Of a stretch of DNA of 64,000 nucleotides, positions 18,836 through 31,259 are shown in pieces; the first letter of the stretch is position 1; each line of letters starts with the position of its first letter. Made by a program: the position numbers and the translations under genes. The notes beneath the pieces were generated by a model. It was not told where the DNA came from. It was given only the letters and a program-made list of their open reading frames with translations, and ran no database searches. Source of the DNA: an uncultured Mitsuokella sp. (GTDB taxonomy: Bacteria; Bacillota; Negativicutes; Selenomonadales; Selenomonadaceae); the NCBI GenBank assembly GCA_945877355.1, contig CAMCRT010000003.1, positions 30,025-94,024 on the forward strand. Direction: 5' to 3'.

Positions 18836-21800
18836 TCAACGCTCATATTTGGCGCTAAGCTCCTTGAAATAGCCAGCGTCTATCTTCTGGAGATAGTTTG
18901 GCTTCAGGCACCACTTCCAGTTGAGGCCGACGGTGCCGGGGGTGTTCATGCGGGCCCTGTCGTCGAGGCCCAGCATATCCTGCATGGGCACGATGGCGAT
19001 GCGGGCATTGGAGGCATAGGCGAAGGTGATGAGCTTCTTCGCCACCTCCTCGGGGCGATTCTCATCCGCGTGGACGAGGGCCGCCACCGCAGAGCGGGTC
19101 GTGTCGTCAATATCCTTCTGGAACCAGCCTGCCGTCGTGTTGTTGTCGTGGGTCCCGGTGTAGACGATGCTGTTCTCGGGGGCCACGAAGCCCAGGCGGC
19201 CGTTCTCATTGAAGTGCAGAGTAAAGTGAAGCACCTTCATGCCGGGGAAGCCACACGCATCCCGGAGCTTTTCCACGTCCTCCGTGATGATGCCGAGGTC
19301 CTCCGCCACGATGGGCATTTGCCCAAGATCCTTTTCGATCTCATCGAAGAAGGGCTTGCCCGGTCCCTTGCGCCAGCAGCCGTTGATGGCCGTCTCCGCC
19401 TTGCCGTCGATTTCCCAATAGGACTCGAAGCCGCGGAAATGGTCGATGCGGATGATGTCCACGGACTCGTAGAGCTTGCGGAACCGCTTCTTCCACCAGG
19501 CATAGCCGTCTTTCTTCATGGCCTCCCAGTTGTACTGGGGATTGCCCCAGAGCTGGCCCGTGGCGCTGAAGTAGTCGGGCGGGACACCGGCAACGGTACG
19601 GGGCGTGCCGTCCTCGTTCAGGTCGAAGAGACCTGGATTTGCCCAGACATCGGCGCTGTCCTGGGAGATGAAGATGGGCATGTCGCCCAAAATTTCGATG
19701 CCCTTTTCCTTGGCATAGGCATGGAGCCTCTCCCACTGGCGAGCAAAGACATACTGCTGGAACTTCACGAAGGCGATGTGCTCCTCGTAGCGGCGGCTGA
19801 GCTCAGCGAGGGCCTTGGGCAGACGCTTCTTGAGGCCGTCGTACCACTCGGTCCAGGGCTTGTCGTGGCTCTCCCGCTTTGCCGCCAGGAACAGGGCGTA
19901 GTCGTCAAGCCAGTAGGCTTCCTTCTGGCAGAAGGCCTCGTAGTCCGCCTGGACGCCCGCATCCTTCTGGAAGCGGGTGAAGGCTTTCTTGAGGGCCTTG
20001 TGCTTGAAGCTTATGACCCGCTCGAAGTCCACAAAGGAGCTGCTGCCGGAGGCGTAGGACACCCGCACCTCCGCCGGCATGAGCCACTTGCGCTCGATGA
20101 GCGCATCGAGATCTATGAGGAGCGTGTTGCCCGCAAAGGCCGAGGGGGACTGATAGGGCGAGTAGCCATAGCCCACGGGGCCGAGCGGCAGGATCTGCCA
20201 GACCTTCTGCCCGGCGGCAGAGAGGAAGTCGAGGAAGGCATAGGCCTCCTTCCCCAGGTCGCCGCAGCCGTATTTCGACGGCAGCGACGTGGGATGCAGG
20301 AGGACGCCTGCCTTGCGCGGGTACTTCCTCGGCTTCTCCCGATACTGGAGCAGGAAGCCCATGAGGGGCGGCACCTTTATCGTGAGCTTTCCGAAGCTCG
20401 TCTCGTAGACATTGTCCTCGTCGGTCACATCCACAAATGTGCCCTCGGCGAAGTCGCTGACATCCACGGTGACAGTGCGCTTCTCCTCCTTGTTGCGGTT
20501 GAAGACCACCACGAAGGCCTCGTCCTTCGCCTCCTGGCCGAAGACATCGCTCTCGCCCTGGATGGTGCGGGCGTAGGAGATCACGTCCCCCTCGCTGTAG
20601 AGCGGGAGAAGCGCACCCGTCTGGAGGGCGATGTGCTCATTACGCGTGTGGACCATGGCCCGGACGATATTGCAGAGGGCTGTGTCACCATTCTCCCAGG
20701 GATAGGGCCGACGGTTGTAGGGGTCCTTGAAGCCCTGCATGCCCACCTCGTCCCCGTAGTAGATGGAGGGGACGCCCGGGTACGTCATCTGCCAGAGTAT
20801 CGCCATCTTCAGGCGCTGGATGCCGAGGGCATACTGCTCCTTCGTGAGCTTCGAGCGGCTCTGGGCGATGGCAGGCATGCCCTCGTAGTAGGCCGCCTCG
20901 CCGAATATGGTCAGAGCCCGCTGGACATCGTGGCTGCCGATGAGGTTCATCATGGCATAGAAGTTTTCCTTCGGGTAGTTCTCCCGGAGGCTCTCAAAGC
21001 GACGCATGGAGTAGGCGCCATCCACGTGGCCCATCAAGAAGTCCAGGAGAATCTGGCGGAAGGGGTAGTTCATGGCAGAGTCCATTTCCCTGCCGCAGAG
21101 GTACTCCCTGGGCTGGCCGTAGGCCACCTTGTTCGACGCGTCCTCCCAGACCTCGCCGATCATGACGGCCTCGGGATTCGACGCCTTCAGCTCCTTGAAG
21201 AAGGCCTGGGAAAAGGCCGCCGGCAGCTCGTCGATGACATCGAGGCGCCAGCCGCTGATGCCCTCGCCGAGCCAGTGGTGCAGGACGCTGTCCTCCTTGT
21301 TGATGATGAAGTCCATGTAGGAGGGCGTCGTCTCCGTCACGTCCGGCAGGGTGTCAAAGTTCCACCAGCACTCGTACTCATAGGGGAAATTGCGGAAATT
21401 GTACCACTCGTAGTAGGGGGATTCCTTCGATTGGAAGGCTCCCAGCGTGTCGTACTGGCCGTATCGGTTGAAGTAGCGGCTGTTGCTGCCCGTATGGCTG
21501 AAGACGCCATCCAGGATGATGCGGATACCCTTTTCCCTCGCCGTGTCCACCAGATGCCGGAAGTCCTCGTTCGTGCCGAGGATCGGATCGATCTTGTGGT
21601 AGTCGCCCGTATCGTAGTGATGATTGCTCTCCGACTCAAACACGGGGTTCAAGTAGATGACGGAGATGCCAAGATCCTTCAGGTAGTCGAGCTTTGACTC
21701 GATGCCCTTGAGATTCCCGCCGAAGAAATCGTAGGCGATGATCTCCTTCGTGTCCGGGTCCTTGTAGTAGGACGGATCATCGGACCAGCAGGCGTGATAG

Positions 21801-22309
21801 ACAGCACCCTTCTTCTCGATGATCTTGTCCCCCAGCCGGCAGAAGCGGTCGGGGAAGATCTGGTACATGACGCTGTGCTTGAACCAGTCCGGGGTCTTCG
21901 CCCCCTTGTTGAAGACGGTGAGCTGGAAGGAGGGTGGTACATGGTCATAGACCTCCCCCACGCCGCCCAGCTGATCGTTTCCATTGCCATAGAACGTGGT
22001 GCCGCTGTCCTGGGATATGATGAAGTAGTACCAGATCAGGCACCCTTCCTCCGGCAGCTTTAGCCGCGTCTGATAATACCGCGTCTCAGAGAGCGGATCG
22101 TCCGCACTCTGGAGCTGGACGAGTTTCTCGCCCTCCCGCTCCGACCAGAGGCGCAGAAGGACGTTGTTCACCGCCTCCTTCGTCTGGATGCGAAGGCCCA
22201 GCTTCACCTTCGTGCCTGCCTCCGCCGCGCCGACAGGCGAACGGTAATATGCATTTTGGGAATTATGCTCGACTTGATTTCGTCCAAGCATCGATAGCAC
22301 TCCCTCCAT
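18836..22309 (-). CDS. Fused GH13 alpha-amylase/neopullulanase-like and GH77 4-alpha-glucanotransferase (1157 aa)
   Basis: GH13: GWRLDVIDEL, MIGEVWEDA, NLIGSHDVQRA. GH77: HPTSLPSKYGCGDLG, DIIRIDHFRGFESYW, PIVAEDLG, GTHDNNTTAGW. One uninterrupted ORF. Confidence 0.92.
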   Translation of the reverse strand: MEGVLSMLGRNQVEHNSQNAYYRSPVGAAEAGTKVKLGLRIQTKEAVNNVLLRLWSEREGEKLVQLQSADDPLSETRYYQTRLKLPEEGCLIWYYFIISQDSGTTFYGNGNDQLGGVGEVYDHVPPSFQLTVFNKGAKTPDWFKHSVMYQIFPDRFCRLGDKIIEKKGAVYHACWSDDPSYYKDPDTKEIIAYDFFGGNLKGIESKLDYLKDLGISVIYLNPVFESESNHHYDTGDYHKIDPILGTNEDFRHLVDTAREKGIRIILDGVFSHTGSNSRYFNRYGQYDTLGAFQSKESPYYEWYNFRNFPYEYECWWNFDTLPDVTETTPSYMDFIINKEDSVLHHWLGEGISGWRLDVIDELPAAFSQAFFKELKASNPEAVMIGEVWEDASNKVAYGQPREYLCGREMDSAMNYPFRQILLDFLMGHVDGAYSMRRFESLRENYPKENFYAMMNLIGSHDVQRALTIFGEAAYYEGMPAIAQSRSKLTKEQYALGIQRLKMAILWQMTYPGVPSIYYGDEVGMQGFKDPYNRRPYPWENGDTALCNIVRAMVHTRNEHIALQTGALLPLYSEGDVISYARTIQGESDVFGQEAKDEAFVVVFNRNKEEKRTVTVDVSDFAEGTFVDVTDEDNVYETSFGKLTIKVPPLMGFLLQYREKPRKYPRKAGVLLHPTSLPSKYGCGDLGKEAYAFLDFLSAAGQKVWQILPLGPVGYGYSPYQSPSAFAGNTLLIDLDALIERKWLMPAEVRVSYASGSSSFVDFERVISFKHKALKKAFTRFQKDAGVQADYEAFCQKEAYWLDDYALFLAAKRESHDKPWTEWYDGLKKRLPKALAELSRRYEEHIAFVKFQQYVFARQWERLHAYAKEKGIEILGDMPIFISQDSADVWANPGLFDLNEDGTPRTVAGVPPDYFSATGQLWGNPQYNWEAMKKDGYAWWKKRFRKLYESVDIIRIDHFRGFESYWEIDGKAETAINGCWRKGPGKPFFDEIEKDLGQMPIVAEDLGIITEDVEKLRDACGFPGMKVLHFTLHFNENGRLGFVAPENSIVYTGTHDNNTTAGWFQKDIDDTTRSAVAALVHADENRPEEVAKKLITFAYASNARIAIVPMQDMLGLDDRARMNTPGTVGLNWKWCLKPNYLQKIDAGYFKELSAKYER

Positions 22310-22381: not shown

Positions 22382-23848
22382 TTACCGGGAGACAAGCTCC
22401 TGATAGAGATCCTCGTACTCCTTCGCCGAGGACTTCCAGCTGAAGTCCGCCGTCATGGCGTTCTGCACGAGCTTGAGCCACTCGCCGATATTGCCATAGA
22501 GCTTCAGAGCCCGCTTCAGGGCGTACATCATCTCATGGGCATTGTAGTCCCGGAACAGGAAGCCCGTGCCCTCGCCCGTATACTTGTTGTAGGGCGTGAC
22601 CGTGTCCTTCAGGCCGCCGGTCTCCCGGACGACCGGGATGGTGCCATAGCGCATGGCCACCAGCTGGCCGATGCCGCAGGGCTCATAGTCGGACGGCATG
22701 AGGAAGATATCGGAGGATGCGTAGATCTTCTGGGCCAGGTCATTGGAGAAGCGGATGTTGACGGAGCACTTCGTGGGGAAACGCCAGGCGAGGCCCTTGA
22801 ACCAATCCTCGTAGACCTTGTCGCCGGTGCCGAGGACCACCAGCTGGATATCCTCGTGCTGGAGGATTTCGTCCATCATCCGCACGATGAGGTCCATGCC
22901 CTTCGGCTGGACGAGGCGGGACACGATGGCGACCATGGGCGTGCGGCGCTTCTCCGGCAGGCCCAGGAGCCGCTGAAGCGCCACCTTGTTGTCGAGCTTG
23001 CGGTCGATAGAGTCCGCATCATAGGTCTCCTCGATGTTCTTGTCCGTTTTCGGATTGTAGACATCATAATCAATGCCATTGACGATGCCGAAGAGGGTGT
23101 CCTGACGGGCCCGAAGGAGTCCATCCAGATGCTCGCCGAAGTAGGGATACTGGATCTCCGTGGCATAGGTCTTGCTGACGGTGGAGATGAAGTCGGAGTA
23201 GATGATGCCGCCCTTCATGAAGTTGACCGCATCGTAGAACTCCAGATCCCCGTTGTTGAAATATTTCCAGTCGAGGCCCAGCGTGTCCTCCATCACATCC
23301 TTCGGGAAGACGCCCTGATACTTCAGATTGTGGATGGTGAAGATGGTCTTGATTTTCTCATAGCGCTCGTCCCCCATGTGCTCCAGCTTCAGGAACACGC
23401 TGACGAGGCCTGCATGCCAGTCATTCGTATGGATGACATCCGGCCAGAAGTCCATGGCCTCCAGAAGGTCCAGCACGGCCCGGGAGAAGAAGGAGAAGCG
23501 CTCCGCGTCATCGTCGTAGCCGTAGAAGCCCTCCCGCTTGAAGTACTCCTCATTGTCCACGAAGTAGTAGGTGACGCCGTTATGCTCCAGCTTGTCGAGG
23601 CCGACGAACTTCTTGCGCCAGGACACGGAGAGCTCCCCGTCATAGACGTGCTCCATGGCATTCCGGTATTCCTCGGGAATCATGCCAAACTTCGGCATGA
23701 TGACGCGGACATCGACGCCATCGGCTGCCAGAGCCTGCGGCAGGGACCCTGCCACATCCGCAAGGCCGCCTGTCTTGGCAAAGGGTGTTGCTTCTGCTGC
23801 TACGTAAAGTACCTTCATATCAAAATCCCCCTTTATCTCTTTTCCCAC
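22382..23848 (-). CDS. glgA: Glycogen synthase (ADP-glucose, GT5); likely start ATG at 23818
   Basis: MKVLYVAAEATPFAKTGGLADVAGSLP; C-terminal PSDYEPCGIGQLVAMRYGTIPVVRETGGLKDTV. Confidence 0.96.
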   Translation of the reverse strand: MGKEIKGDFDMKVLYVAAEATPFAKTGGLADVAGSLPQALAADGVDVRVIMPKFGMIPEEYRNAMEHVYDGELSVSWRKKFVGLDKLEHNGVTYYFVDNEEYFKREGFYGYDDDAERFSFFSRAVLDLLEAMDFWPDVIHTNDWHAGLVSVFLKLEHMGDERYEKIKTIFTIHNLKYQGVFPKDVMEDTLGLDWKYFNNGDLEFYDAVNFMKGGIIYSDFISTVSKTYATEIQYPYFGEHLDGLLRARQDTLFGIVNGIDYDVYNPKTDKNIEETYDADSIDRKLDNKVALQRLLGLPEKRRTPMVAIVSRLVQPKGMDLIVRMMDEILQHEDIQLVVLGTGDKVYEDWFKGLAWRFPTKCSVNIRFSNDLAQKIYASSDIFLMPSDYEPCGIGQLVAMRYGTIPVVRETGGLKDTVTPYNKYTGEGTGFLFRDYNAHEMMYALKRALKLYGNIGEWLKLVQNAMTADFSWKSSAKEYEDLYQELVSR

Positions 23849-23901: not shown

Positions 23902-26082
23902 TCAAGCGTTCGCCGTCCTTGCTTTTTTCGGCGCCGCCTTTTTCGCTGTGGTCTTCTTGCGGGTCACCGCCCCAGTCTTTGATTTGGCGGTCGCAGCCTT
24001 CTTCGTGCGGGCAGCAGGCTTCTTCGCTGCAGCTACCGTCTTCTTGGGAGCGGCCTTTTTCGTCGCTGCGATGCGGCGCGCAGGCTCCGTGGCCGCTGCC
24101 TCGGAGGCCTCCGCCTTCTTCTCCTCATGGCCCTTCACCATGAGGCTCTTCGGCGCGCCCTCGATGGAGATCTTCGCTCCGGCCTGCTCCTGGAGGCGCA
24201 GGTAGACGGTGGCCAGCGGCGGCACCGTCAGCACGATGGACTGATCCCGGTCGTGCCAGGGGATATCCTCGCTCACGAGGAAGCCCTCGTTCTTCACGCC
24301 GCTGCCGCCAAAGGCCTCGTCGTCGGAGTTGAAGACCTCCTGATAGCTGCCCTTGGAGGGGACGCCGATGCGGTAGCCATGGCGCACCTCCGGCGTGAAG
24401 TTGCAGACGGCGATGAGGAAGTCATTGCCATCCTCCGCCCGGCGGATGAGGGAGATGACGCTGTTCTCATTGTCGTTGCAGTCAATCCACTGGAAGCCGT
24501 TCCAGTCGAAGTCCACCTGCCACATGGCCTTGTTGTCACAGTAGAACTTGTTGAGGGCCCTCGTGTAGGCCAGCATCTTCGTGTGCATGGGATACTGCTG
24601 CGGCAGATGCCAGTCGAGGCTGTCGTCGAAGTTCCACTCGATGAACTGGCCATACTCGCCGCCCATGAAGAGGAGCTTCTTGCCGGGATGGACCATCCAG
24701 TAGGCAAAAAACGTCCTGAGGTTTGCAAACTTCTGCCAGTAGTCGCCGGGCATCTTCGAGATGAGGGAGCACTTGCCGTGGACCACCTCGTCGTGGGAGA
24801 GCGGCAGCACGAAGTTCTCGCTGAAGGCGTACATGAGGGAGAAGGTGAGCTTGTCCTGGTTCCACTTGCGGTACACCGGGTCGAGGGACATGTACTTGAG
24901 CATGTCGTTCATCCAGCCCATGTTCCACTTGTAGTTGAAGCCCATGCCGCCCATGTAGACGGGCTTCGAGATGAGGGGCCAGGAGGTGGACTCCTCCGCG
25001 ATCATCAGGGCCTGGGGATGATACTTGAATATGGTCTCATTGAGCTTCTTCAAAAAGTCCATGGCCTCGAGATTTCCGGTGTCGCCGTACTTGTTCGGCG
25101 TCCACTCCCCGTCCTTACGGCCGTAGTTCAGATAGAGCATGTTGGCCACCGCGTCGATGCGAAGCCCGTCGATGTGGAACTCCTCGAACCAGAACATGGC
25201 GTTCGATATGAGGAAGCTCTGGACCTCCGTGCGGCCGTAGTCGAAATTGGTGGTGCCCCACTCCCAGTTCTCCGCCAGCTGCTCATTGTCCGACTCGTAG
25301 AGGGTCATGCCGTCAAAATGGCGCAGGCCCTGCTCGTCCTTGCAGAAATGGCCCGGCACCCAGTCCATGATGATGCCGATGCCCCGCTCATGGGCCCTGT
25401 CCACCAGATAGCGGAAGTCATCCGGGGAGCCGAAGCGGCTCGTCACCGCATAGTAGCCCGTGGCCTGGTAGCCCCAGGAGCCGTCATAGGGGTGCTCGCA
25501 AAGGGGCATGAACTCGATATGGGTGTAGTGCATGTCGCAGACGTAGTCGATGAGCTGGTCAGCCAGGTCCCGATAGGAGAGGTACTCCCCATCGGCGCCC
25601 CGGCGCCAGGAGCCCGCGTGGACCTCGTAGGTCAGCATGGGCCGCTCATAGGAGGACTCATGCTTCTTTTTCTGCTGCCACTCGCCATCCTTCCAGTCGT
25701 AGTGGGAGAGGTCGTAGACCCGCGATGCCGTCTGGGGCTTTTTCTCCGCGTAGAAGCCATAGGGGTCTGCCTTCATGATATGGGGGCCGCCCCACTGGGG
25801 CTCGATGGCGTACTTGTAGACGGTGCCCTCCTGGAGGCCCTCGATGAAGGTCACCCAGATTTCCCCGTCGCCGATGCGGTCCATGTAGTTTGTCCGGGTA
25901 TCCCAGTCATTGAAGTCGCCCACGACGGATATGCTCTTGGCATGGGGCGCCCACACGGCGAAGCGGACGCCTCTCTTCCCGTCCTGCTCGACAAAGTGTG
26001 CGCCGAGCATCTCGTAGGCATGGTAATTCGTCCCCTGATGGAAAAGATAGAGGTCGAATTCACTCAGATCGGATGTTTTCAC
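23902..26082 (-). CDS. glgB: 1,4-alpha-glucan branching enzyme with Lys/Ala/Pro-rich C-terminal extension
   Basis: GH13 GlgB motifs (DWVPGHFCKDEQGL, GLRIDAVANMLYLNYG, IAEESTSWP, LSHDEVVHGK); tail ...KKAAPKKTVAAAKKPAARTKKAATAKSKTGAVTRKKTTAKKAAPKKARTANA. Confidence 0.95.
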   Translation of the reverse strand: MKTSDLSEFDLYLFHQGTNYHAYEMLGAHFVEQDGKRGVRFAVWAPHAKSISVVGDFNDWDTRTNYMDRIGDGEIWVTFIEGLQEGTVYKYAIEPQWGGPHIMKADPYGFYAEKKPQTASRVYDLSHYDWKDGEWQQKKKHESSYERPMLTYEVHAGSWRRGADGEYLSYRDLADQLIDYVCDMHYTHIEFMPLCEHPYDGSWGYQATGYYAVTSRFGSPDDFRYLVDRAHERGIGIIMDWVPGHFCKDEQGLRHFDGMTLYESDNEQLAENWEWGTTNFDYGRTEVQSFLISNAMFWFEEFHIDGLRIDAVANMLYLNYGRKDGEWTPNKYGDTGNLEAMDFLKKLNETIFKYHPQALMIAEESTSWPLISKPVYMGGMGFNYKWNMGWMNDMLKYMSLDPVYRKWNQDKLTFSLMYAFSENFVLPLSHDEVVHGKCSLISKMPGDYWQKFANLRTFFAYWMVHPGKKLLFMGGEYGQFIEWNFDDSLDWHLPQQYPMHTKMLAYTRALNKFYCDNKAMWQVDFDWNGFQWIDCNDNENSVISLIRRAEDGNDFLIAVCNFTPEVRHGYRIGVPSKGSYQEVFNSDDEAFGGSGVKNEGFLVSEDIPWHDRDQSIVLTVPPLATVYLRLQEQAGAKISIEGAPKSLMVKGHEEKKAEASEAAATEPARRIAATKKAAPKKTVAAAKKPAARTKKAATAKSKTGAVTRKKTTAKKAAPKKARTANA

Positions 26083-26197: not shown

Positions 26198-28681
26198 TTA
26201 GGATATGGTGACCGGCTTGATCTTCCAGATTTCCTTTGCATACTCCTCGATGGTACGGTCGGAGGAGAAGTAGCCGGCATTGGCGATGTTGACCGCCGAC
26301 ATGTGGGCCCAGCGCAGCTTCTCGCCGTAGCGCTTGTAGATTTCCTGATGGGCATCGGCGTAGGCATTGAAGTCCTTCAGGATGAAGAACTCGTCGTTTG
26401 CCTGGAGGATGGTGTCGAAGAGGGAGTGGAAGTCCCCGTAGGTGCCATCCGTCAGCTGGTTGATGACGAGGCGCACATTCTCGTTCTGGTTGTACTCGTC
26501 CCAGGCGGAATAGGAGCCCGTGGCGTAGTAGTTCAGGACCTCCTCCGCCGTCAGGCCGAAGATGACGCAGTTCTCGTCGCCCCCCACCTTCTCGCGGATC
26601 TCCACATTGGCGCCGTCCAGAGTGCCCAGGGTGATGGCGCCGTTTATCATGAACTTCATGTTGCCGGTGCCGGAGGCCTCCTTCGAGGCGGTGGAAATCT
26701 GCTCGGACACATCAGCGGCAGGATAGACCACCTCGCCGAGGGACACGCCGAAGTTCTCGATGAAGACGACCTTCAGCATGTCGTTTACCGCCGGGTCGTT
26801 GTTGACCTTGTCCGCCACCGCATTGATGAGGCGGATGGTCTTTTTCGCCACATAGTAGCCAGGAGCTGCCTTGCCGCCGAAGAAGTAGGTGGTGGGCAGC
26901 ATCTGATAGCTCTTGTCCGTCTTGAGCTTATGATACTGGAACATGATGTGGAGGATATTCATGAGCTGGCGCTTGTAGGAATGGATGCGCTTTACCTGGA
27001 TATCGAAGATGGTATGGGGGTCCACCACGATGCCCTGCTTCTCTTTTATGAGCCTAGCGAGGGCGTCCTTTCGGATTTCCTTGATCTTCGTGAGCTTCTC
27101 CAGGAAGGGCCGGTCATCCACATAGTCGTTCAGGAGATCCATCTGCTCCGGGTGACGGTGCCAGCGGCGGCTGCCGATGGTCTGGTCGATGAGATCCGAG
27201 AGCTCCGGATTTGCCCCCATGAGCCAGCGACGATGGGTGATGCCATTCGTCTTGTTGTTGAACATGTTGGGGTAGTAATCGTAGAAGTCCTTCAGCGTCG
27301 TGTGCTTCAGGATTTCCGAGTGGATCTTCGCCACGCCATTGACGCTGTGGCCGCCCACGATAGAGAGGCGGGCCATGTGGACGCAGTTGTCCTGGATGAT
27401 GGAGAGCTCGTGGACCTTGTCCTCGTTCTGCGGATAGCGCTCCCGCACGTCGATGAGCCAGCGGCGGTTGATTTCGTCAATAATCATGTAGATGCGGGGC
27501 AGCAGGTTGCGGAACATGCCCACCTCCCACTTCTCCAAGGCCTCCGGCATGATGGTGTGGTTCGTATAGGCGATGGTCTCGCGGGTGATGCTCCAGGCCT
27601 CGTCCCACTCGAAGTCCTTCTCATCCACGAGAATGCGCATGAGCTCTGCCACGCAGAGGGCCGGATGAGTATCGTTGATATGGATGGCCACATGCTTTGC
27701 GAACTCGTGGAGATCGCCGCCCTCCCGGAGGTAGTGGCGGACGATGCTCTGGACGCCGGCGGAGACCATGAAGTACTCCTGGATGAGGCGGGTCTGCTTC
27801 CCCTCGTAGGTGCTGTCATCCGGGTAGAGGGAGCGGGTGATGTTCTCCACGAAGCGGCGATACTCCCGCTTCTGATGGATCTGCTCCTGGGTAAGGCGCC
27901 CGTAGTCGGAAAAGTCCCGGTCCACCTCGGCGCTCCAGAGCCGAAGCGTATTCACCGTATGGTTGTGGTAGCCAACCACCGGCACATCGTAGGGGACGCC
28001 CATGATGGTCATGGCATTCTCATGGACGAGCTTCAGCTTGCCGTCCTCCAGCTTCTTCATGTAGGCATTGCCGTAGAACTTGACATCCACAGACTTATCG
28101 GGGTTCCGATACTCCCAAGCGAAGCCGTCCTTCAGCCAGTTGTCCGGGATCTCGACCTGGTTGCCGTCGATGATCTTCTGCTCGAAGAGGCCGTACTTGT
28201 AGCGGATGCTGCAGCCGTGGCCCGGCAGGCTGTGGGCAGCCAGGGAGTCGATGAAGCAGGCGGCGAGACGGCCGAGGCCGCCGTTGCCGAGGCCAGCGTC
28301 TGGCTCCTGCTCATAGACCTCCGGCAGCTTCAGCTTGAAGTCCTGGAGCACCTCGGAGACAGCCTCCTCGATGCCGAGGTTCAGAAGGTTCGACTTTAGG
28401 AGGCGGCCCAGCAGGAATTCGATGGAGAAGTAATAGACCTGCTTCGTGTTCTTCTCGCCATAGGCCTTGTTCGTATTGATCCAGTTTTCAGAAATAAACT
28501 GCTTGGCTGTGGCGGCCACCGTCTTGTAGATCTCATTTTCCGTGAGATCCTTGAGGTCGCGGCCCCACATGATGTGTGCCGTCTGGGTGAATCGGGTCTT
28601 GATGTTTTCCTTGAGCTTTTCAAACTCGCGGCTCTTTGCCTTTTGTTCTTTCGTTTCTCGTGCCAAATTCAACACTCCCAT
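26198..28681 (-). CDS. glgP: Glycogen/starch/alpha-glucan phosphorylase
   Basis: GT35 signature EASGTGNMKFMINGAITLGTLDGANVEI; GNGGLGRLAACFIDSLA. Confidence 0.97.
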   Translation of the reverse strand: MGVLNLARETKEQKAKSREFEKLKENIKTRFTQTAHIMWGRDLKDLTENEIYKTVAATAKQFISENWINTNKAYGEKNTKQVYYFSIEFLLGRLLKSNLLNLGIEEAVSEVLQDFKLKLPEVYEQEPDAGLGNGGLGRLAACFIDSLAAHSLPGHGCSIRYKYGLFEQKIIDGNQVEIPDNWLKDGFAWEYRNPDKSVDVKFYGNAYMKKLEDGKLKLVHENAMTIMGVPYDVPVVGYHNHTVNTLRLWSAEVDRDFSDYGRLTQEQIHQKREYRRFVENITRSLYPDDSTYEGKQTRLIQEYFMVSAGVQSIVRHYLREGGDLHEFAKHVAIHINDTHPALCVAELMRILVDEKDFEWDEAWSITRETIAYTNHTIMPEALEKWEVGMFRNLLPRIYMIIDEINRRWLIDVRERYPQNEDKVHELSIIQDNCVHMARLSIVGGHSVNGVAKIHSEILKHTTLKDFYDYYPNMFNNKTNGITHRRWLMGANPELSDLIDQTIGSRRWHRHPEQMDLLNDYVDDRPFLEKLTKIKEIRKDALARLIKEKQGIVVDPHTIFDIQVKRIHSYKRQLMNILHIMFQYHKLKTDKSYQMLPTTYFFGGKAAPGYYVAKKTIRLINAVADKVNNDPAVNDMLKVVFIENFGVSLGEVVYPAADVSEQISTASKEASGTGNMKFMINGAITLGTLDGANVEIREKVGGDENCVIFGLTAEEVLNYYATGSYSAWDEYNQNENVRLVINQLTDGTYGDFHSLFDTILQANDEFFILKDFNAYADAHQEIYKRYGEKLRWAHMSAVNIANAGYFSSDRTIEEYAKEIWKIKPVTIS

Positions 28682-28951: not shown

Positions 28952-30067
28952 TTATATGACAGTACGCTTTGTGATGATGAGCGGGTAGTTCGAGGCACCC
29001 TTGAGCCATTTCTCCTTTGTGATGACCACGTTCTTGTCGGTTATCACGTTCTCCACGAGGGCCCCTTCCTTTACGGCGCTCTTCTGCATGATGATGGAGT
29101 TCTTGACCTCTGCACCCTCCTCCACCGTCACGCCGCGGAAGAGAATAGAGTTCTCCACCTTGCCGCGGATGATGCAGCCATTGGCCACGAGGGAGTTCTT
29201 CACGTCCGCCGTCGCCTTGTACTCCACGGGGACCTCATCCTTCGTCTTCGTGTAGATGGGGTGCTCGCCCATGAAGAGCGTCTCCCAGTTCTCCGGCTGT
29301 AGTAGGTCCATGTTCGCCTTGTAGAAGGAGGCGATGGAGTCGATATGGGCCACATAGCCGTCATGGGCCATGGCATACATGGTGTAGTCATTCATGCGGC
29401 GGATGATGGCATCCATGAGGAAGTCCTGGCCGCCATGCTCATAGGTGTAGCGGACCATCTCCACGAAGATGCGCTTCTCCATGAGGTAGATGCCAAGCGA
29501 CACCTTCATGCCGTCATAGACCACGGGCTTTTCTGCGATATCCGACACGAGGCCGCTGGCCTCCGTCTCGAGAACCACGTTCTTCCCCTGGGTCTCCTGC
29601 TCTGCCACATGGTAGACCATGGAAATCTCCGCCCCCGTATTCTGGTGGAAGCGCAGGAGCTTCGAGAAGTCGATGTTGTAGATGAAGCTGCCGCTCGTCA
29701 GCATGATGTACTTCTGGGAGCTGTGCTCGATAAAGTCGAGGTTGTGGTAGAAGTTCTTGAGGTCGCCCCGGCGGCTGATCTCATCCTTCTGGGGGGTCGG
29801 CAGGTAGAAGAGGCCATCGTGGCGGCGGGCCAGGTCCCAGTCCTTGCCGGAGCGGAGATGGTCGAGGACGGACCTGCCCTTGTTGGGAAGCATGACGCCC
29901 ACATTCACGACGCCGGAATTCACGAGGCTCGACAGGGCGAAGTCGATGAGGCGGTAGCGCCCGGCGAAGGGGAGGGACTCCACAGCCCGGCGCTCCGTCA
30001 GCTCCCGGATCAGAGTGTCGTCCTCCTGCATGTTGATGATGCCCATTACTGTTTTCACGTTGCTCAC
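28952..30067 (-). CDS. glgD: Glucose-1-phosphate adenylyltransferase subunit GlgD
   Basis: MGIINMQEDDTLIRELTERRAVESLPFAGRYRLIDFALSSLVNSGV. Confidence 0.95.
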   Translation of the reverse strand: MSNVKTVMGIINMQEDDTLIRELTERRAVESLPFAGRYRLIDFALSSLVNSGVVNVGVMLPNKGRSVLDHLRSGKDWDLARRHDGLFYLPTPQKDEISRRGDLKNFYHNLDFIEHSSQKYIMLTSGSFIYNIDFSKLLRFHQNTGAEISMVYHVAEQETQGKNVVLETEASGLVSDIAEKPVVYDGMKVSLGIYLMEKRIFVEMVRYTYEHGGQDFLMDAIIRRMNDYTMYAMAHDGYVAHIDSIASFYKANMDLLQPENWETLFMGEHPIYTKTKDEVPVEYKATADVKNSLVANGCIIRGKVENSILFRGVTVEEGAEVKNSIIMQKSAVKEGALVENVITDKNVVITKEKWLKGASNYPLIITKRTVI

Positions 30068-30104
30068 TCCGTTCTTACATTACTTGTCCAGCATTGGGCA
30101 TATT

Positions 30105-31259
30105 TCAGCCGACGCGCATGGTGCCATCGAGGGCGCGCACATGCTCCCCGTCGGCGATGACGGTGATGGCCTCCTTCTCGCCCGTGACCTTCGCGCCCTC
30201 CTCGATGACGCAGTTCTGGGCCACGATGGCGTACTCGACGCTGGCCCCCTCCTGGATGACGGTGGAGGGCATGATGACCGAGTCCTTCACGTGGGCGCCA
30301 CGGCCGATGCGCACGCCCGGGAAGATGACGGAGTTCTCGACGGTGCCCAGCACCATGGAGCCCTCGCTGATCATGGAGTTCGTGATTTCCGCCTCCGGGC
30401 CCACGAACTGGGGCGGCATCGGAGGATTCGAGGAATAGATCTTCCAGTCTCCATTGAGGTCCACAGGGAGGTTGTCCTGCAGGAGATCCATATTGGCCTG
30501 CCACAGGCTCTCGATGGTTCCCACATCCTTCCAGTAGCCGTCAAAGGCGTAGGAGAAGAGGCGGCCGTTATCCGCAAGCATCTTGGGGATGATGTTCTTG
30601 CCGAAGTCATGGGCGCTCGTCTCGTCCTTTGCGTCCTCCTCGAGATACTTCTTGAGGTAATCCGTGCTGAAAATATAGATGCCCATGGAGGCGAGGTTGC
30701 TCTTCGGCTTTGCGGGCTTCTCCTCAAACTCCAGGATGCGGCCCGTCTTGTCCGTGTTCATGATGCCGAAGCGGGGCGCCTCGTCCCAAGGAACCTCGAT
30801 GACGCCGATGGTGGCCTCTGCCTGGTTCATCTTGTGGGCCTCGAGCATCCAGGAGTAGTCCATGGTGTAGATGTGGTCGCCGGAGAGGATGAGCACATAG
30901 TCAGGATCCGCCAGCTCGATGAAGTTCAGGTTCTGATAGATGGCGTCTGCCGTGCCGCGATACCAATCCGCGCCCTTCTCACGAGCGTAGGGGGGCAGGA
31001 TGAAGATGCCGCCCTCCCGCTTGTCGAGGTCCCAGGGGCTGCCGGAGGCGAGGTAGTTGTTGAGCTCAAGCGGACGATACTGGGTCAGGACGCCGACCTT
31101 GTCGATGCCGGAGTTCGCGCAGTTCGACAGCGGGAAATCGATGATGCGATACTTCCCGCCGAAAGGTACAGCGGGCTTTGCGATCTTCTTCGTCAGGGCC
31201 CCGAGGCGGCTGCCCTGTCCTCCTGCCAATATCATGGCCAAGCATTCTGTCTTTCTCAT
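30105..31259 (-). CDS. glgC: Glucose-1-phosphate adenylyltransferase GlgC
   Basis: [48 protein letters not shown]. Confidence 0.97.

Follow-up and report, generated by a model that had tools for sequence, protein, structure and literature searches.

The stretch of DNA analysed here, 64,000 nucleotides long and called the window below, carries on its minus strand a glycogen cluster in which the branching enzyme GlgB ends in a long basic tail. The features of interest are the following.

18836-22309, minus strand: ORF of 1157 residues at the end of the glycogen cluster, a fusion of an alpha-amylase-type GH13 and a GH77 4-alpha-glucanotransferase
22382..23848, minus strand: glgA, glycogen synthase, downstream in the glgB cluster, net charge -20, without basic tail (Pfam Glyco_transf_5, charge, end)
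23902..26082, minus strand: glgB, 1,4-alpha-glucan branching enzyme, 726 residues (NCBIfam, Pfam)
24187..26082, minus strand: folded GlgB body, residues 1-632 (NCBIfam and Pfam limits, PDB alignments, charge)
23905..24186, minus strand: C-terminal tail of GlgB, residues 633-726, predicted disordered (pLDDT, composition, conservation in the family as a charged tail)
23905..24087, minus strand: lysine-dense core of the tail, residues 666-726, EPARRIAATKKAAPKK...KARTANA (sequence, pattern search)
26198..28681, minus strand: upstream neighbour, glgP-like glycogen phosphorylase, without basic tail (ORF and charge; identified by sequence reading alone)
28952..31259, minus strand: two ADP-glucose pyrophosphorylase-type genes, without basic tails (Pfam NTP_transferase and hexapeptide domains)
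28952-30067, minus strand: the first of these, glgD-like
30105-31259, minus strand: the second, glgC, product of net charge -16

The glgB reading frame is uninterrupted, begins with GTG and has GGAGG upstream. Its product matches NCBIfam NF003811 over residues 10-629 (E 3.6e-282) as well as TIGR01515, and the only domains found by Pfam are those of GlgB (CBM_48, Alpha-amylase and Alpha-amylase_C). With a CBM48, a GH13 catalytic domain, an Alpha-amylase_C domain and an equivalog match, the protein is a GH13 glycogen branching enzyme, a family whose body binds glucan. The enzyme fold ends at residue 629-633 according to the NCBIfam GlgB models and at residue 630 according to Pfam Alpha-amylase_C, and alignment to solved GlgB structures (PDB) reaches only residues 628-631. 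This body is acidic, with a net charge of -34 and a pI of 5.0.

Beyond the normal end of GlgB the frame stays open for another 94 residues, which have a net charge of +20 (21 K, 5 R, 28 A, 5 P, 0 D and 6 E; pI 10.9) and terminate in ...TKKAAPKKTVAAAKKPAARTKKAATAKSKTGAVTRKKTTAKKAAPKKARTANA-TGA, a terminus also written ...AKKAAPKKARTANA. A sequence-only reading of this DNA had described a Lys/Ala/Pro tail here, and our results confirm it, with exactly the terminus that was quoted. The same reading had put the tail at about 85 residues, whereas it has about 94 (24186-23905), and the span that it gave, 23902-24150, covers the last 82 codons and the stop, i.e. part of the tail. Three KK[APT]3KK motifs lie in the lysine-dense core. 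The tail is predicted to be disordered: AlphaFold2 gives pLDDT values of 26-31 over residues 634-726 and of 70-95 over much of the body, from a shallow alignment (13 rows) and with low values in parts of the body too, which supports disorder rather than proving it. Of the window's 144 ORFs that are 150 residues or longer, GlgB alone has such an end, and the 115 neighbouring ORFs encoded on the same strand as glgB all lack one. The codon pattern for KK[SPTA]3KK occurs five times in the 2.55 Mb genome, three of them within the GlgB tail. The remaining two fall in an autotransporter (L087) and in a 48-residue frame (L088); the former (C26:5032-5052) is a short KENKAKKASAKKADKGE linker directly ahead of the beta-barrel of the autotransporter-like protein.

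We searched for GlgB in 101 genomes of the Selenomonadaceae and read 90 ends, 63 of which have tails of at least 30 residues; 58 of these 63 are net positive and 50 have a net charge of at least +10. Basic tails of at least 60 residues and a net charge of at least +8 occur in 48 of the 88 GlgB whose end is complete, i.e. not cut by a contig edge. Long tails are found, for example, in Mitsuokella sp. oral taxon 131 (L003), Selenomonas artemidis (L004) and Anaerovibrio MAGs (L007, L009). The trait is patchy, and several genera have short or near-neutral tails, as in Selenomonas ruminantium RUG12626 (L012) and in a group of S. ruminantium type (g3; L108, L111, L121-L123), where the tail is mostly near-neutral and 44-46 residues long. 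Within this group L108 has a basic tail of 73 residues, and length and charge thus vary inside one genus. The sequence-only reading suggested a comparison of GlgB C-termini across Negativicutes; outside the family, most GlgB matches in Negativicutes stop near residue 629-640, as given by match limits rather than by residue-by-residue reading. K/A-rich basic tails are also present on Clostridial GlgB, in 16 of the 69 loci that do not belong to the initial family-like set (these loci were chosen by similarity to the query, and the count is not a survey fraction), and are independent of those of Selenomonadaceae. Ruminococcus-like MAGs (L049, L064, L071) have mixed-charge or acidic E/K/A/P tails of up to 267 residues, with EVKEEVKAAPKA units in L049. 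A tree of GlgB bodies requires 12 or more changes of tail state, given thresholds that are arbitrary and to which a few tails are close. The tail of L096 contains tandem KAETKTAAKKT units, an example of repeat-like growth.

Used as a query against the 101 family genomes, the window's tail recovered nothing beyond its own genome, a single congener and a single doubtful place, owing to the divergence of tail sequences. In all 12 pairs of GlgB compared, the dN/dS of the tail is below 1 (0.05-0.48) and exceeds that of the body (0.014-0.08). Across 50 GlgB tails picked on length only (at least 60 residues), K+R content is 27.7 +/- 3.0% and independent of local G+C over 37-61% (rho -0.15, p 0.31; the tails are related by descent, which makes p-values indicative). 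The alanine content of these tails and their choice of lysine codons (AAG share) follow G+C. Drift driven by G+C is thus ruled out as the cause of the K+R content, although alanine content and codons do track G+C. A constant K+R content whatever the G+C, together with dN/dS below 1 in all 12 pairs, implies that selection keeps the charge at the protein level. Judging from these comparisons, the charge of the tail is maintained while its sequence turns over fast. The possibility, raised earlier, that the tail is peculiar to this assembly is excluded, since tails are widespread and under purifying selection. In-frame tails in both congeners and in most genera, with dN/dS below 1, also rule out a frameshift or assembly artefact.

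The tail had been likened to those of H1-like DNA-binding proteins. The window's tail has no match to Pfam HC2 above the gathering score, which does not place it among histone H1-like nucleoproteins, it contains no AT-hook core (RGRP flanked by K/R), and when searched alone against Pfam and NCBIfam it gives nothing above cut-off. The tails of relatives reach at most 17.5 bits with Pfam HC2 (cut-off 40) and 12.6 bits with Pfam AT_hook (cut-off 17.4). When the 63 family tails were compared with shuffled versions, KK[APST]3KK was present in 26 tails for 1.8 expected, and (K/R)RGRP, which has the AT-hook core of GRP flanked by basic residues (PMC11354804), in 10 tails of 5 genera for 0.01 expected, examples being PKRRGRPRMTEEEK and KPKRRGRPPKKK. 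The latter motif corresponds to 4 changes on the GlgB-body tree, hence not to 10 independent events. There was no clear enrichment in SPKK minor-groove motifs (6 tails for 2.9 expected). H1-like and AT-hook elements are combined in one disordered basic region in CarD of Myxococcus xanthus, a transcription regulator whose core and role are unrelated to those of GlgB.

Other carriers of such segments were sought with the KK[SPTA]3KK codon pattern and by tail searches of genomes. We read 60 further stretches with this pattern in family genomes, 20 of them picked by eye and 40 taken from the listed remainder, and found a long ORF with H1-like surroundings in TopA (7), in ParA (1) and in one seemingly out-of-phase frame (L214). 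The K/A/P extensions of RpoD are longer and of mixed charge; they fall short of this criterion and count as weaker. These Lys/Ala-rich extensions of Selenomonadaceae proteins (TopA, L179-L184 and L198; ParA, L192; RpoD, L191, L193 and L194) were confirmed by Pfam for one TopA, the ParA and one RpoD, and the other carriers were named by reading. Apart from GlgB itself, the tail query over 81 genomes matched just three loci, all identified as TopA. As far as the sequences tell, the clear carriers besides GlgB among the sampled places are DNA-acting proteins (TopA and ParA, more weakly RpoD). Their KKTAAKK-rich segments are of the same kind as the GlgB tail, although their cores act on DNA and that of GlgB does not. 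A DNA-binding role for the tail like that of H1, PhaF or AlgP is thus supported indirectly, because charge is conserved, relatives have AT-hook cores, and TopA and ParA have like segments.

The architecture of GlgB resembles that of PhaF of Pseudomonas putida, where a store-binding part leads into a C-terminal region that is disordered, rich in Lys/Ala and able to bind DNA, and where a role in the spacing and partition of storage granules has been proposed (PMC3574117, PMC9239181, PMC13052382). The H1-like AlgP of Pseudomonas aeruginosa has a long disordered Lys/Ala/Pro C-terminal region, and its loss alters granule number and spacing (PMC9239181). In both proteins the disordered Lys/Ala tail binds DNA and keeps storage granules spaced (PMC3574117, PMC9239181), and losing these KPAA tails disturbs the spacing of polyP or PHA granules (PMC9239181). 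In Cupriavidus necator, the histone-like C-terminus of PhaM couples the polymer-synthesising PhaC to DNA (PMC13052382). GlgB shares with PhaF/AlgP-like tethers a C-terminal region rich in Lys/Ala, predicted to be disordered and within their range of about 80-200 residues, and Pfam finds in it neither a phasin nor an AlgP N-terminal domain; it may work like these tethers and is not a member of their class. PhaF is a phasin dedicated to PHA, with an amphipathic helix and a leucine zipper, whereas GlgB is a catalytic enzyme of glycogen with no phasin domain and with putative DNA binding. AlgP is not a glycogen enzyme, sits on polyP granules and has regular KPAA repeats, in contrast with the irregular KKAAPKK/AAKKPA motifs of the GlgB tail. 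PhaM is a separate adaptor protein, whereas GlgB would be an enzyme that itself carries the tail.

Our preferred reading, to which we give a probability of about 0.45, is that GlgB, like PhaF and AlgP, contacts DNA non-specifically with its tail, while its body sits on glycogen. The body (CBM48 and GH13) would be placed on the growing glycogen particle, and the 94-residue Lys/Ala tail would project outward and bind chromosomal DNA non-specifically through its charge, with AT-hook motifs reinforcing the binding in some relatives. Having many GlgB per particle would make the attachment of glycogen to the nucleoid multivalent and reversible. Such attachment would spread the particles in the cell and share them between daughters, whereas without it the nucleoid would drive them poleward. 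The sequences show the tail, its predicted disorder, its conservation, selection on its charge and the AT-hook cores of relatives; that the ligand is DNA, and that glycogen is thereby tethered and partitioned, we infer from these. The granule-to-DNA tether suggested in the sequence-only reading seems a good conjecture. Counting against it are the patchy distribution of the tail, the lack of an AT-hook in the window's own tail and the sub-threshold Pfam HC2 and AT_hook scores of even the best relatives.

The glycogen of E. coli accumulates at the old poles, and its over-production can lead to exclusion of the chromosome and a shorter lifespan (PMC4836754). Glycogen is made by S. ruminantium, for which rosette-like particles have been reported (PMC8116748, PMC10395257). 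A DNA tail built into the branching enzyme would be a simple way to partition glycogen. PHA and polyP stores are already known to be positioned on the nucleoid through Lys-rich tails, and glycogen is absent from the account of a 2025 review of organelle positioning (PMC13052382). We found no report of GlgB tails in the literature searched, which covered few subscription papers and is weak evidence of absence. The broader proposal, that GlgB itself acts as a chromosome tether in Selenomonadaceae and, by convergence, also in some Clostridia, where an H1-like or AT-hook tail would fix glycogen to the nucleoid and ensure its inheritance, is more doubtful, and we hold it only tentatively. If it is true, glycogen would be the third storage polymer, after PHA and polyP, to be positioned in this way, with one of the pathway's own catalytic enzymes as the tether instead of a dedicated adaptor.

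Disordered tails rich in lysine can bind polyanions of any kind, and it is conceivable, if rather unlikely, that the ligand of the GlgB tail is RNA, ribosomes or polyphosphate, either in place of DNA or to the same extent, which would place glycogen synthesis in RNA- or polyP-rich cytoplasm or in a condensate. Such an anchor would fit the location of the KPAA-tailed AlgP on polyP granules (PMC9239181) and the presence of a PPK1 gene in the window's genome. Yet PPK1 is missing in 23 of 48 tailed genomes, which disfavours polyphosphate as a necessary partner, at least when made by PPK1, the kinase looked for, and tails are longer in genomes without PPK1 (median 164 vs 113 residues). The AT-hook cores and the company of TopA and ParA also point to DNA.

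Alternatively, the basic tail might gather acidic glycogen enzymes or fold back on the acidic GlgB body, and so concentrate or regulate glycogen synthesis. The net charges in the cluster (GlgA -20, GlgC -16, amylase/MalQ fusion -30, GlgB body -34) and the conservation of charge rather than sequence would agree with this, but acidic enzymes are the rule in bacteria, which makes the partner not specific, and the AT-hook cores of relatives are left unexplained; we consider it unlikely. Slightly less probable again is that the tail is an entropic bristle, keeping GlgB soluble or glycogen particles apart, with charge sign being secondary. The fast turnover of the tail sequence fits this, as do the mixed-charge or acidic tails of the Ruminococcus-like MAGs, which a pure DNA tether does not predict and which count as evidence against it; a more general role of the tail is therefore possible. 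Against the bristle, nearly all Selenomonadaceae tails of at least 30 residues are net positive (58/63) and their K+R fraction is tightly held. Finally, functionless low-complexity growth at a permissive C-terminus is very improbable, since the patchy distribution with its 12 or more changes on the tree, the repeat-like extension seen in L096 and the higher dN/dS of the tail than of the body in every pair are outweighed by the lack of such ends on 115 neighbouring ORFs, by dN/dS below 1 in all pairs, by a K+R content constant over 37-61% G+C and by the same enzyme having acquired tails again in Clostridia.
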